DNA of 64,000 bases, taken from NCBI GenBank assembly GCA_902801985.1, contig CADCKD010000006.1, positions 1 through 64,000 of the forward strand, written 5' to 3'. The notes under the pieces were generated by a model. It was not told where the DNA came from, did no database searches, and saw only the letters and a list, made by a program, of their open reading frames with translations. How positions within the stretch are numbered: position 1 is the stretch's first letter; every line of letters begins with the position of its first letter. Positions 2,579-60,680 of the stretch are shown here, piece after piece. The translations under genes and the position numbers were made by a program. Origin of the DNA: an uncultured bacterium. Lineage in GTDB: Bacteria; Cyanobacteriota; Vampirovibrionia; Gastranaerophilales; Gastranaerophilaceae.

Positions 2579-3464
2579 TCCCTATTTTCTTCCAAATGTA
2601 GATGTATCTAATTATGCAACCAGATTGTTATCCGATACAATTGGGACTGAAACAATACCAATAGATGTATTTGAAATATTGGAATATATTGAAGAATTAG
2701 GCATTACTTGTAAGTTTACAGATAAAAAATTTGAAGATAATTCTGAATATGCAATTACAGAACTATCAAAAGACGGTCAACGGCGAATTTATATAAATTC
2801 AAAATTTTACGGAAGATCATTTCAAGATATAACAGATATTACAAAAAGAAGGCATTGTCGGTTTACGCTTGCACATGAGTTAGGCCATTGTTTTATTCCT
2901 GCTCATGCTGATTATTTAACTCAGCAGTTAATGCTAGATAAAAGCAATTTACATGCTAAGAAATATTCATTTACTAAAGAATATGAAGCAAATACTTTTG
3001 CCTCTGAATTATTAATTCCATCAAGTACTATTGGTAAAATAGAACAGTACGGTTCTGATTTTAAACAGATAGTCGAAAATATATCGAAAAAATACGATAC
3101 CTCTTTCACAGCAACCGCTTTAAAAGTTGTAAAACTTCTCAAAGATATTAACTGTATATGTATCCAATTTGATGCTGATACTAAACAAATAATACAGTAT
3201 AAATACTCTGAAGCCTTTGGAAGTTACAAAAAGGGTTTATTTTTTAATCGTGATTCAAAAATATACGGTGGTTCTGTTACAAGTTCATTGATGAAAGGTA
3301 ATGATAAATCTTATTATCAAAAATATAATGATCCAAAAGATTGGTTTCCAAACTTTTATGGTAATGATAGTGCATATCTTAATGAATGGGCTTTTAAGGT
3401 TGGCCCAAGTATAATTACTTTTTTAGAACTTGTTGACACAAGTGAATATGCTTTATATTTTTAA
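2568..3464 (+). CDS. ImmA/IrrE-family zinc metallopeptidase
   Basis: Predicted 298-residue cytoplasmic metalloprotease. The zinc site is His103-Glu104-x-x-His107 (LAHELGHCF), and Glu140 in the downstream EYEANTFASELLIP segment fits the third ligand. The C-terminal half is unassigned and may sense or bind a partner. It begins inside the XRE coding sequence (translational coupling). The family includes ImmA, which cleaves the ICEBs1 repressor, and Deinococcus IrrE. The neighbouring XRE protein is the likely substrate. AT-rich composition is similar to the chromosome, unlike the first small gene. Confidence 0.9.
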   Translation: MTTNPYFLPNVDVSNYATRLLSDTIGTETIPIDVFEILEYIEELGITCKFTDKKFEDNSEYAITELSKDGQRRIYINSKFYGRSFQDITDITKRRHCRFTLAHELGHCFIPAHADYLTQQLMLDKSNLHAKKYSFTKEYEANTFASELLIPSSTIGKIEQYGSDFKQIVENISKKYDTSFTATALKVVKLLKDINCICIQFDADTKQIIQYKYSEAFGSYKKGLFFNRDSKIYGGSVTSSLMKGNDKSYYQKYNDPKDWFPNFYGNDSAYLNEWAFKVGPSIITFLELVDTSEYALYF

Positions 3465-3511
3465 TCTCCATCTCATAGTTAATTACATCTTGTTCTGTAT
3501 GTTAAATTACA
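3465..3511. other. Short non-coding spacer before the tandem repeats
   Basis: No gene, hairpin or promoter could be supported here. Confidence 0.4.
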
Positions 3512-3841
3512 AAGGGACTTGAATTGTTATTTGTTTCAGTAGGAAACAAATAACCCAGTCAGCCGAACGGATTCGGCATACTTGATTTGTAAGTTTCGAG
3601 CATCCAGCTCTCAACAAACAACTCAAGCACCGCATCGCCCACCATAGAACAGGGGCAAGGGACTTGAATTGTTATTTGTTTCAGTAGGAAACAAATAACC
3701 AAGTCAGCCGAACAGATTCGGCATACTTGATTTGTAAGTTTCGAGCATCCAGCTCTCAACAAACAACTCAAGCACCGCATCGCCCACCATAGAGCAGGGG
3801 TAAGTAATGTTACCTCTGTTTTATTTTGAGGTGGGCAAGGG
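3512..3841. repeat. Two 145-bp tandem repeats plus a third partial end resembling a tRNA 3' end
   Basis: Copies run 3512-3656 and 3657-3801 with near identity, and the opening GGCAAGGGACTTGAA recurs at 3835-3849. Read on the minus strand this opening is TTCAAGTCCCTTGCCC, like a tRNA T-arm plus 3' acceptor strand. No matching 5' half of a tRNA is present. Each unit also holds a perfect 12-bp stem (GTTATTTGTTTC / GAAACAAATAAC) and a short minus-strand reading frame fragment ending ..YKSSMPNPFG. The array could be stacked attachment-site remnants from integrations at a tRNA, or amplified repeat DNA. Confidence 0.75.
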
Positions 3842-3849
3842 ACTTGAAC

Positions 3850-3900
3850 TTTACATGTCATTGCGAGGACGAAAGTCCGAAGCAATCCAGCTATTTAAGA
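3850..3900. repeat. Dispersed palindromic repeat (ATTGCGAG...GAAGCAATC family)
   Basis: CATTGCGA, then GGAC-GAAA-GTCC (a short stem with a GAAA loop), then CGAAGCAATCCAG form a nested hairpin. A related element sits at about 56368-56405 beside the tmRNA gene. It lies immediately after the truncated tRNA-like end. 3901-4009 shows nothing further that I can assign. Confidence 0.55.
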
Positions 3901-4009
3901 TTGAAAGCCATTTGTCTAAAGCAATTCCAAAACCTGTTATAAACAATCATAAATAAAATATTATTTTGTGATTTTCCTAATTAATAGGCTACTGTGGCCA
4001 ATGAGGGCT

Positions 4010-4030
4010 TTTGTAACAATAACTTAACAA
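4010..4030 (+). promoter_or_regulatory. 21-bp upstream motif shared with the gene at 56726
   Basis: TTTGTAACAATAACTTAACA plus A matches 56620-56640 at 20 of 21 positions. Both copies lie within 100 bp upstream of large surface-type or lineage-specific genes on the plus strand. The role is unknown: a regulator site or an upstream promoter element. Confidence 0.45.
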
Positions 4031-4110
4031 ACCCCAAAATGAAGGTCAATTTTAAAAATAAAAAATACTTTACCTATATATATAAATGATATATGGGGGA
4101 AATAAAGAGT

Positions 4111-6081
4111 ATGAATTATTTTGAATTTTTGGGGAACAAATATGCGTTGTCAAATGCAGTTCAGCCGAATATAAATTTGGATAATTTGCGTTTAGATGAA
4201 AATATGGATAATCCATTTAAATTGAATGGTGAATCAATATTTACTAATGCGACAAAAAAGGAATTAAAAAAATTAGACTATGAAAAATTAGTTGAAGACG
4301 AAACAAAAACAGAAGATGAAAAATCAAAAGAAAAAACAGATAAAAAAGCTGACGAAGAAAAGAAATTTTCACCATTAGAATTTATCTTAAAAGAGTTTTT
4401 ATCACTAGATAAGGTAAAAACATCCGCAGATAAAGATAGTGACGGAAAATTAACAGTTGAAGAGATAAAAGAATATGTAACTGGTTTAGCTAAAAAAGAC
4501 GGCAAATCAGATTTATCTCTGGAAGATTTCAATGCAGTAATAGAAGAATTAGAAATAAATTTAGATGAATTACTGGAAGAATTAAAACCAAAAGAAGAAG
4601 CAGAAGGGACACAAAATCAGGAAGAAACACCTGCCGCAGAAGAAACTCCTACTTCATCTTCGGTTGATGATACTCCATCCGCAAGTTCAGATAGCGGTTC
4701 ATCATATTCAGAACCGGTACAAAGCGGTTCATCTACACCTGTTGCCAGTTCATCACCTGTGGAGGATTCACCAGCATCTGCCAGAAGTTCTCATTCTTCA
4801 AGTGCAGGCGAAAGTTCTGCTCCGGAGGTAAAAACAATAGATAATATGTCTTTAGAAGAACTTCAAGCAGAAAAAACAACAAGACAAAATACACTATCTG
4901 AAAAACAAAAAGCCGTTAATGCAGTTCGCAACGGTGAAAATGCAAATGTTAAAGCTGCAAAAACAGAAGAAGCAAAAGCTAAAGAAGAATACGAAAAAGC
5001 AATCAAAGAAGATGATGCAGCCAAAAAATTTGCAAATGATATTTTGAAAAATAACGAAGCATTAGAAAAAAATAAAACAGCTTTAGATAAAAATGCCGAA
5101 AATATAACAAATAAGGAAGAAGAAATTTCTAAAGCCGAAGCATCAATTACTGAAAAAGAAAGCGAACTATCCGGTTTAGAGGCCTCTTTAAAGAGTTTAT
5201 CTTCCGCAAAAGAAGACGACGAAAACGCTAAAAAGCAAAAAGCAGATTTGACCAAGAAAATTTCAGCATTAAAAAAAGAAATAAGTAATGATAAAAAACA
5301 ATTAGAAAAATTAAAAAAAGATTTGGAATCTTTGAATAAAGAAAAAACTAAACTTGAAGAAGAAAAGAAAAAGTTGGAAGAAGAAAAAGCCAAACTTGAT
5401 GAAAAAGTAAAAGAAAATTGTTCTGAAACCACCAAAGCAAAACTGGAAGCATATAATAAAGCCAGAGAAAATGTTGAAAAAGTTAAGTCAAAAGAACTTG
5501 CAACAGCTAATAAGGAGTATAAAGAAGCTCAAGAATCTTTAAAAGAAATAAATGCAAAAATAGCTGAAGCTAAAAAGAATAAAGTAACAGATACAACAAC
5601 AGCTCCAAAAGGTTCTGTAGAGAAAATGGTTCAGATTGCAGAACAAGAATACAAAAAAGGGGTAAAAGAAACAAGCAAAAATGACAGTGTTGATATCAGA
5701 AGATATAAACACGGAGCTAAAAATACTCACGAATGGTGTGCATATTTTACATCATATTGTGCGGAACAAGCAGGTTTAACAGATAAAACATTTAAATATA
5801 CTCCATCTTCTCAAGCAATCAGAAGAGCTGCAGAAAAAGCCGGAAAATTTTCATCAAAGAATTCCAGCTACAATCCAAAACGAGGGGATGTTGCAATTTG
5901 GACAAATATAGGTGATCCAAACCACGGACATGTCGGGATTGTTGATAAAATATATAAAGATGGCTCAATAGATATAATTGAGGGAAATTCTCACAGTGCC
6001 GTATCTAAAAATCACTACGCAAGTAAAAAAATTCCCGGCAGATTTAACGGCTATATCAGAATGAATGAATGGGTTGCATAA
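4111..6081 (+). CDS. EF-hand / coiled-coil / CHAP-domain protein, probable peptidoglycan hydrolase
   Basis: Predicted 656 residues. A perfect EF-hand calcium loop lies at 107-118 (Asp107, Asp109, Asp111, Thr115, Glu118). It is followed by a Ser/Thr/Pro-rich linker (about 165-245), a long Lys/Glu-rich coiled coil (about 250-490) and a C-terminal CHAP domain with Cys543 (EWCAYF) and His607 (HGHVGIV). CHAP enzymes cut peptidoglycan amide bonds. No signal peptide is visible, so export would need a non-classical route. GGGGGA precedes this start, but 4093 is possible in frame, with TATAAA exactly 6 nt upstream as in other leaderless genes here. The calcium site suggests Ca-dependent folding or activity (inference). 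Confidence 0.85.
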   Translation: MNYFEFLGNKYALSNAVQPNINLDNLRLDENMDNPFKLNGESIFTNATKKELKKLDYEKLVEDETKTEDEKSKEKTDKKADEEKKFSPLEFILKEFLSLDKVKTSADKDSDGKLTVEEIKEYVTGLAKKDGKSDLSLEDFNAVIEELEINLDELLEELKPKEEAEGTQNQEETPAAEETPTSSSVDDTPSASSDSGSSYSEPVQSGSSTPVASSSPVEDSPASARSSHSSSAGESSAPEVKTIDNMSLEELQAEKTTRQNTLSEKQKAVNAVRNGENANVKAAKTEEAKAKEEYEKAIKEDDAAKKFANDILKNNEALEKNKTALDKNAENITNKEEEISKAEASITEKESELSGLEASLKSLSSAKEDDENAKKQKADLTKKISALKKEISNDKKQLEKLKKDLESLNKEKTKLEEEKKKLEEEKAKLDEKVKENCSETTKAKLEAYNKARENVEKVKSKELATANKEYKEAQESLKEINAKIAEAKKNKVTDTTTAPKGSVEKMVQIAEQEYKKGVKETSKNDSVDIRRYKHGAKNTHEWCAYFTSYCAEQAGLTDKTFKYTPSSQAIRRAAEKAGKFSSKNSSYNPKRGDVAIWTNIGDPNHGHVGIVDKIYKDGSIDIIEGNSHSAVSKNHYASKKIPGRFNGYIRMNEWVA

Positions 6082-21228: not shown

Positions 21229-21523
21229 CGCACAAAAATAACTATTTCTATCACATATGCGGACTGCACGCACATATATGGTTATTTCGAGCGTTCCGGC
21301 TTTTACGGCTGCGGCAGCAGCTGAAGATGTTCACTTCATTTCCTCTTTATTATATTAATTAAATTTATAATAATATAAAATTTTGGTTTAATGCAATATT
21401 ATTTTGACTTTTTGATAAAAAATCTTAAACATATCATGTAAAAAATCATACGAAAGTATGACAACAATTAATCATTAATATGGTACAAGTAGAGTGTATA
21501 AGACTTGGCGGATAATTTAAGAT

Positions 21524-55609: not shown

Positions 55610-55628
55610 TTATTGGTGGAGACGAGGG
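55610..55628. repeat. Duplicate of the tmRNA 3' end
   Basis: The 19-bp TTATTGGTGGAGACGAGGG is repeated at 55804-55822, where it is the true 3' end of ssrA. The 175 bp between (55629-55803) are GC-richer and hairpin-rich and contain no gene. Confidence 0.75.
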
Positions 55629-55807
55629 AAGTGTCTTGCTGCGCTCGCCATCGACGTGACTCCGCTTGAGCCTTTTATGTCTGCCGACAGCCTGTCAATA
55701 AAGCTCAAGGCTCTGCACTTGGTTCGCTTGCGCCGAACCCCAAATTGGTGTTCTCTGCCATACTCATCATACCAATAAAGAAGACAAGATAAACCTGTCC
55801 TCTTTAT

Positions 55808-56213
55808 TGGTGGAGACGAGGGGATTCGAACCCCTGTCCAAAACGGATAAAGATATACTTCTACGTGTGTAGACTATTTTTAGCTCAATTGACTCAGGAA
55901 AATGTCTAAACCCGACAAGTCAACCCTAGGTTTTATTTAAAGGAAACTCTAAACCTTGCAAAGTTGTCTTAATGCGCTCACTTTGCATCGGCGCACTGCC
56001 GCTTGCATAATGGACCCATAAAACCGGCAAGCTGGGCTCTATGAGTAGCTAAATCGCAAACTACTATGCAGCAACTGCATATGCTCTAGGAGCGAAGTCT
56101 GCTTCAATTACATTGTTAGCATTTAATTTAATTTGCCCGTTGATAACGGAGAACAGCTCTCCGACACGCAATACACCTTCACCAAAACGCCCTGTCAAAT
56201 CCAAAACGTCCCC
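55808..56213 (-). ncRNA. ssrA: Transfer-messenger RNA (tmRNA)
   Basis: The 5' end GGGGACG pairs with the 3' CGTCTCC; a discriminator A and an encoded CCA follow. The T-arm GGGGTTCGAATCCCC is intact. The tag reading frame (56064-56120, minus strand) encodes ANNVIEADFAPRAYAVAA and a TAG stop. Its ANN start and hydrophobic AVAA end are as expected for tags recognised by ClpXP. Length is about 406 nt, one-piece. It rescues stalled ribosomes together with SmpB. Both ends are flanked by duplicated copies of themselves. Confidence 0.95.
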
Positions 56214-56520
56214 ATGAAGTGCTTTGGGACGTTTAGCTCCTGTGGTGCTCGGGCTTTGCCCTGTGCTCCTACGTCGCTGATATAATGTTACGTGCCCTGC
56301 TCGTTTCGCCTTCGCGAACCGACACCGGCACTACACACCGGCTAACGCTTTTACCGCCTGTACAATCAAAGATTGCTTCGCTCCTATCACTTCGTGATAG
56401 TCGCAACGGCGGTGATATAATGTTACGTGCCCTGCTCGTTTCGCCTTCGCGAACCGACACCGGCACTACACACCGGCTAACGCTTTTCAAAACGTCCCCA
56501 TGAAGTGCTTTGGGATGTTT
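56202..56520. repeat. Insertion of about 250 bp at the tmRNA 5' end with 33-bp flanking duplicates
   Basis: CAAAACGTCCCCATGAAGTG then CTTTGGGACGTTT occurs at 56202-56234 and, with one change, at 56488-56520. Between them are two 75-bp copies (56278-56352 and 56413-56487, both beginning TGATATAATGTTACGTGCCC), and between those a GATTGCTTCGCT...TCGCAA hairpin related to 3850-3900. The insertion separates tmRNA from its ancestral upstream region. Confidence 0.8.
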
Positions 56521-56619
56521 ATTTAGTCCCATATAGCAATTTTTAATGTACAAGTATAATGTATTATAAATTCTATTCTGTGATTTTTCAAGTGTTCATT
56601 TAATGATATATTTACCCCT

Positions 56620-60415: not shown

Positions 60416-60496
60416 TGTCGACGGGGGGACTTGAACCCCCAGAGCTCTCGCCACATGCACCTCAAGCATGCGTGTCTACCATTCCACCACATCGAC
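60416..60496 (-). tRNA. tRNA-Leu (anticodon GAG)
   Basis: The acceptor stem GTCGATG pairs with CGTCGAC, followed by discriminator A. The D-arm GGTGGAATGGTAGACAC is typical of Leu. The anticodon stem-loop GCATGC-TTGAGGT-GCATGT carries GAG at 60461-60463. There is a class II long variable arm, and a T-arm GGGGGTTCAAGTCCCCC. No CCA is encoded. Its 5' end is duplicated 135 bp away at 60621-60639. Confidence 0.96.
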
Positions 60497-60504
60497 TGAT
60501 ATTT

Positions 60505-60639
60505 AATTATTTTGTAATTCTACTATTAAATTGTCATTTTCTTAATACCGTCTCTGTGTTGGATGTTGTCTTTGACAACCCTCTCCTCGAACGATACTTA
60601 ATCGTTCTCGTCGGCAGAGTACCACATCGACTGATATTT
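60505..60639. repeat. Hairpin-rich insert ending in a duplicate of the tRNA-Leu 5' end
   Basis: ACCACATCGACTGATATTT is present at 60486-60504 (tRNA 5' end and flank) and again at 60621-60639. The intervening 116 bp contain GTTGTCtttGACAAC and CGAACGATactaATCGTTC-type hairpins and no gene. Confidence 0.75.
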
Positions 60640-60680
60640 GATTTACCCTCAAAGTATAGCACAAAATTTTTATTTTGTAC

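Follow-up and report, generated by a model that had tools for sequence, protein, structure and literature searches.

The repeats that follow the tRNA-Tyr genes of Escherichia coli have been puzzling, in both origin and role, since the 1970s. At tyrT/tyrV, the order was AAGGTTCG|AATCC..CCA, AAGGATGAGAAGCTT, AAGGTTCGACTCGAGCG.. and finally GAGT|AATCC..CCA, and the known 19-bp repeat of these genes is exactly the segment from A58 to the 3' end. The same plan was seen at proK; here the T-arm was that of proK itself (GAGGATGAGAACCTC..GAGGTTCGA), and the terminator was duplicated. Of 5426 complete E. coli genomes, 4695 carried RtT, at 1-14 places in each; RtT is not known to have a 5'-end class. Integrases classically use the T-loops of tRNA and tmRNA genes as sites (PMC1762012), and islands at ssrA are on record from elsewhere (PMC3146451, PMC4383910). 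In the literature searched, tRNA-end repeats were not described in the bacterial group analyzed here.

The window (the whole 64,000-nucleotide stretch of DNA analyzed) contained an intact tmRNA gene (ssrA; 55808..56213, minus strand; ARAGORN, and Rfam RF00023 at 133.7 bits) encoding the tag ANNVIEADFAPRAYAVAA. The initial annotation, made from sequence alone, had claimed that the 3' end of this gene (19 bp) was repeated 194 bp away, that its 5' end plus upstream DNA (33 bp) was repeated 286 bp away, and that both flanking inserts were gene-free. The first claim held exactly: TTATTGGTGGAGACGAGGG was found at 55610-55628 and 55804-55822 (19 bp exact, spacing 194). The second held with a small correction, the repeat measuring 34 nt with one mismatch (97%; 56202-56235 vs. 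56488-56521, spacing 286) and comprising 12 nt that belong to the gene and 22 nt of upstream DNA. The third also held, as neither 55629-55803 nor 56236-56487 was a gene. The displaced 3'-end copy (19 bp, 55610..55628, minus strand; scan score 19) was eroded in its T-loop-proximal bases, and the tmRNA terminator hairpin, an inverted repeat at 55771..55811 (minus strand), separated the gene from the 3' unit. At the other end, the gene-proximal copy of the 5' end (56202..56235, minus strand; repeat search) was accompanied by an upstream inverted copy (the AAACGTCCC..GGGGACGTTT hairpin), and the displaced copy (34 bp, 97%) was located at 56488..56521 (minus strand; 5' scan score 31). A promoter-like sequence, TTGAAA-17-TATAAT (56545..56591, minus strand), resembled by sequence comparison the promoter adjoining ssrA in relatives; in the window it lay about 330 bp upstream of the tmRNA gene, past the 5' insert. 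The same window also carried an AdoCbl-II (cobalamin) riboswitch at 21282-21362, minus strand.

The whole 3' insert region (55629..55803), delimited by repeat search and by dispersed copies in its own genome, was composed of the terminator and an RtT-like unit. The core of this unit, formed by the P2-P4 arm and the 3' end CAAGAC, was detected at 55633..55739 (minus strand) by the covariance model R1 (70.0 bits, E 1.7e-14), and the 5' part of the P1 hairpin (GAGAACACC..) together with the left half of P0, the closing helix, in degraded form was recognized in the sequence at 55740..55763 (minus strand). The window's own unit was eroded, with P0 lost and the right copy AATCC now ACTTC, and it was single, without tandem copies. 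The 5'-side insert, B (56236..56487, minus strand; repeat and homology searches), was a dispersed hairpin repeat with an internal direct duplication of 82 nt (56271-56352 / 56406-56487, 98%) and one arm homologous to family A; the two inserts were different repeats, related in this one arm only. Relatives of the 3' insert were found at 72-89% identity in several other places of its own genome, mostly behind tRNA genes and contiguous with a copied 3' part of the tRNA in question, and relatives of the 5' insert at five other places. At gathering score, no Rfam family was named for either insert; RF00391 in particular gave no hit in the window at this score, nor when nine loci were searched with E values of up to 5 allowed.

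The inserts might be remnants of ordinary integrase islands or phages attaching at tRNA/tmRNA genes, an explanation we regard as very unlikely. The inserts were only about 100-250 bp long, gene-free and without an integrase; one core family occurred at many different tRNAs; the left joint was beyond the terminator and not at the crossover; no match was found in a phage collection; and 5' duplications are not produced by such islands. This origin was rejected on size, gene content, the many targets and the 5' copies.

Duplication of RNA-gene ends recurred along the genome and was not special to tmRNA. A downstream copy of the gene's own 3' end was present at 18 of the 51 tRNA/tmRNA genes scanned in the window genome; three relatives gave 4/38, 5/37 and 2/13 genes, the third of these genomes having been covered only partly. 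Most of these copies started at or near the T-loop A58 (the G57|A58 joint). Upstream copies of the gene's own 5' end were found at 9 of the window genome's tRNA/tmRNA genes and, over four genomes, at 14 of 143 genes; they extended 2-19 bases into the gene, mostly 11-19. Both kinds of duplication were commoner than chance, since only 0-5% of the 3' scan controls (other genes or the upstream side) passed the score cut-off and the 5' controls gave 3/572. Both ends were duplicated, as in tmRNA, for Arg(acg), Leu(taa) and one Met gene. A second case in the window was tRNA-Leu(gag) (gene 60416-60496): its displaced 5' end (60621..60643, minus strand; tRNA call and 5' scan) was joined to a short hairpin repeat, D (ACTCTGCCG..TTAAGTATC..; 60592..60620, minus strand; 5' scan and sequence), and the duplication included upstream DNA (60416-60643 region). 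Several 5'-end duplications had in common a short hairpin repeat beginning ACTCTGCCG, and the reverse complement of this repeat terminated in T-loop copies behind tmRNA in two relatives. This mirror-image 5' class of RNA-gene end duplications appears to be new.

Other inserts in T-loops or at tRNA ends (L067, L068, L072, L075 and L047; Pro, Leu and Val) were unrelated in sequence and showed the same joint or layout; it is possible that several element families use one common insertion route. Unusual phage-like tRNA genes were clustered in about 6 kb at L080 (G000 contig C1, 50000-60000), none of them with 3' duplications.

The layout of the 3' units was constant: an intact tRNA or tmRNA gene, in most cases a terminator, P0 as a left strand with complementarity to the T-stem of the host, GA, P1 (GAACC..GGTTC), the long arm P2-P4, AAGAC, A58 and the rest of the host 3' end. 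P1, the P2-P4 arm with its internal loop and the CAAGAC 3' end joined to A58 were conserved in the aligned units, and the predicted single-strand fold of both the tRNA-Asn copy and E. coli RtT was a three-way junction. Covariation was evident among 99 distinct 3' units: 92.2% of the cells were paired, and 312 double-change cells were counted vs. 89 after shuffling and 21-36 with the partners slid. This alignment had been fitted to the structure; the first, unfitted alignment (18 copies) gave the same picture. P0 was matched to the host, the strand left of GAGAACC being complementary to the T-stem of the host that closed the unit at the right. The sum over its first five positions was 3.59 vs. 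2.49 permuted (maximum of 3.14 in 3000 permutations); a second set of 132 copies, partly chosen by pattern, gave a similar outcome, and matching was beyond 3000-5000 permutations across both tests. G-U pairs made up only 13 of the 1321 paired cells of the unit arms (about 1%) vs. 8.0% in the tRNA acceptor stems of the same loci, and this rarity suggests selection on DNA hairpins, or at least unusually strict pairing.

It remains possible that the 3' units are functional RNAs, like RtT: they would be transcribed as tRNA trailers with a copy of the tRNA 3' half at the end, and their closing helix would imitate an acceptor/T-arm minihelix, so that the units would be processed by tRNA enzymes and retained by selection, the RNA processing being inferred without expression data. 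The covariation, the closing helix with the tRNA 3' strand and the host matching maintained for each tRNA are in favor of this explanation, as are the annotation of E. coli RtT as processed from the tyrT transcript and the temperature regulation of RtT RNA in Thioalkalivibrio (PMC8092127). Against it, a terminator-like hairpin was present between the tRNA and the unit in 35 of 51 copies, G-U pairs were almost absent, presence was patchy with rapid gain and loss, and the bodies varied freely, several T-loop inserts being unrelated in sequence.

Presence and absence varied across species, both at ssrA and at other tRNAs. Within the same genus, ssrA was unit-free in five species (G021, G011, G024, G008 and G010) and carried a 3' unit of the same family in eleven others, with different bodies or states; a 5' insert at ssrA was seen only in G000 and G005. 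The 3' family gave model matches in 57 of the 62 genomes of the window's bacterial family and was absent from the other phylum members sampled in that phylum search; most of the named records carrying 3' units were Candidatus Gastranaerophilales, which places the organism of the window in this group or near it. A tRNA/tmRNA gene stood no more than 450 nt ahead of 59 of the 80 model hits, and in 53 of these 59 cases the copy ended in the 3' part of that same gene. Unit cores behind different tRNAs were up to 93-94% identical, with flanks that were each host's own, and units were in tandem in several genomes. The duplications ranged from 12 to about 95 bp; the freshest case, tRNA-Asn of G030, was a perfect duplication of 85 bp from A58 through the terminator, and outside it the duplication had mostly decayed to shorter lengths.

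Two further observations were made in relatives. Orthologous tRNA-Arg units of two species (L180 vs. L170) had wholly different terminators inside identical flanks, which looks like, and may be, rapid terminator swapping. Cores without an adjoining tRNA, closed by other inverted sequence, were present in L197 (1667-1763 and 3507-3603) and L200 (2386-2485), and could conceivably represent a tRNA-independent branch.

The genomes compared were drafts, and an assembly artefact at the repeats had to be considered: the draft of the window genome consists of 74 contigs, and ssrA was often located at a contig end. This explanation is all but excluded, because the independent assemblies of relatives showed the same insertion boundaries as well as empty sites; the same layout was also present in complete E. 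coli genomes.

Spread without transposition was also considered: the units would have arisen once, and tandem duplication, unequal crossing-over and gene conversion would have distributed them among tRNA loci that have the conserved T-arm (GGTTCGAATCC) in common. The constant-period tandem arrays, the 1-14 RtT places per E. coli genome, the T-arm sequence common to the donor P1 and the targets, and P1 and body modules that look recombined are compatible with it. We consider it unlikely: what was duplicated came from the host locus itself, namely its tRNA 3' end, its terminator and more of its flank (as in the perfect 85 bp at tRNA-Asn), and conversion from another tRNA is disfavored because it would not yield host-own flank duplications. 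Unrelated inserts with the same joint and the existence of the 5' class also count against it.

No common motor was identified among the candidates searched for. The Y1 transposase was absent in G000, G002, G009, G015 and G022, though these genomes are copy-rich; the reverse transcriptase RVT_1 was absent in G000, G009, G012, G016, G021 and G022; and Cas1 was not found in the window genome. All three were missing from the window genome, and they were rejected as common motors because each was also missing from several copy-rich relatives. Genes with a Y1-transposase domain and flanking GTAGGGTAGAC hairpins were located in or beside tRNA-linked unit arrays at L220 and L221 (with tRNA-Ala 3' copies in L220). 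As these genes have their own flanking hairpin repeats, they look nested and not causal; perhaps they use the unit arrays as safe landing sites.

Our preferred explanation, held by a modest margin, is that short non-coding repeats specialized for structural-RNA genes struck tmRNA on both sides, and that RtT is one example of a widespread class. The initial annotation had likewise offered, as one explanation, a small element without coding capacity by which RNA-gene ends are targeted or duplicated, and this reading was supported by the dispersed family, the 5' cases elsewhere and the empty sites. Its proposed comparisons gave empty ssrA sites in close genomes and the same inserts beside other tRNA genes; an ordinary island, it had argued, does not explain the 5' duplication. 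Placing both sides in one class is partly inference because tmRNA carries a different repeat on each side, and the link rests on the arm common to B and family A and on the like duplication logic. Other points that weigh against the preferred explanation are the eroded state of the window's own 3' copy, the lack of an identified enzyme, and tandem duplication plus gene conversion, which could mimic part of the spread.

In the proposed mechanism, a unit would land inside the gene near one end, either in the T-loop between G57 and A58 (3' units) or, in the case of 5' inserts, mostly at a depth of 11-19 bases, and insertion would duplicate the outer part of the gene and the adjoining flank, up to about 95 bp, one gene copy staying whole. 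The long duplication would arise if the unit were attached to the two target strands at points as much as about 95 bp from each other, with the gap filled in afterwards; a working gene would be left only if the duplication spanned the gene end. Insertion is inferred to occur at the DNA level, probably of a single-stranded hairpin, neither transposition nor an excised form having been observed; a folded DNA strand is favored over an RNA route because G-U pairs are rare and terminators part the unit from the tRNA. The motor is inferred to be an enzyme acting in trans or host replication/repair, no transposase fitting duplications of 12 to about 95 bp being known to us. Tandem amplification may have followed via the duplicated ends, and the units would persist since their insertion is cheap for the host.

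A bolder reading is that these units are a hitherto unrecognized, phylum-crossing, gene-less mobile DNA that inserts inside tRNA/tmRNA ends, restores the gene at either end by long self-made duplications and carries or acquires a T-arm-complementary strand at the joint, E. coli RtT being a domesticated or surviving member; we lean slightly against it on present evidence. If the units do move, the unusually long target duplications without a known enzyme would represent a new safe way of spreading through essential genes, and closely related species are available in which gain and loss of units can be viewed. More generally, 3' tRNA fragments in bacterial genomes need not signal islands.

Several known mobile systems share part of this behavior. 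Integrase islands at tRNA/tmRNA genes also duplicate the 3' end of the RNA gene and have a T-loop joint, but the units have no integrase or cargo, many tRNA targets per core and 5' duplications. Casposons and Cas1 integrases insert at tRNA gene ends with target duplication; their fixed short duplications (14-15 bp; PMC6977970) contrast with those of the units (12 to about 95 bp). In animals and in Perkinsus, Dada DNA transposons have tRNA genes and genes of other small RNAs as their targets; they encode a transposase, make duplications of 6-7 bp and leave the gene that they enter unrestored (PMC3706591). REP/RAYT elements are, like the units, short gene-less hairpin repeats, but the Y1 transposase is missing in the window genome. 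REPs are not known to make a target duplication.

The closest likeness was to E. coli RtT/rttR (tyrT-tyrV, proK; RF00391). Like the 3' units, RtT is behind a tRNA and closed by an exact copy from A58 to CCA; it has the inverted T-arm with TC changed to GA, the GAACC..GGTTC hairpin and the GAGCG motif; and it occurs as tandem units, host-matched between Tyr and Pro, with the terminator duplicated at proK. As regards RtT membership, closure from A58 behind a tRNA was met in 53/59 units, the E. coli control having the same joint; the inverted T-arm (TC->GA) followed by GAACC..GGTTC was met in relatives and in E. coli (AAGGATGAGAAGCTT, GAGGATGAGAACCTC) and eroded in the window; and the tandem array was met in relatives and E. 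coli. The body sequence differs, R1 scoring only 5-8 bits on E. coli, and the units of the gut bacterium are at many tRNAs plus tmRNA, mostly behind the terminator. Body homology is not claimed, as the Rfam RtT model and R1 do not cross-recognize; the Gastranaerophilales units are built like RtT and are not filed as RF00391. Tandem units of the same plan, with the A58 junction and the inverted T-arm (TC->GA), were also found at tRNA-Ser of Akkermansiaceae and Verrucomicrobia and at one tRNA of Clostridia. Nine other out-of-group pattern matches had no tRNA alongside and were dismissed as chance. This comparison places RtT in a broader class, whose joint (G57|A58) is defined and which has a predicted three-way-junction fold, a host-matched strand and empty sites.
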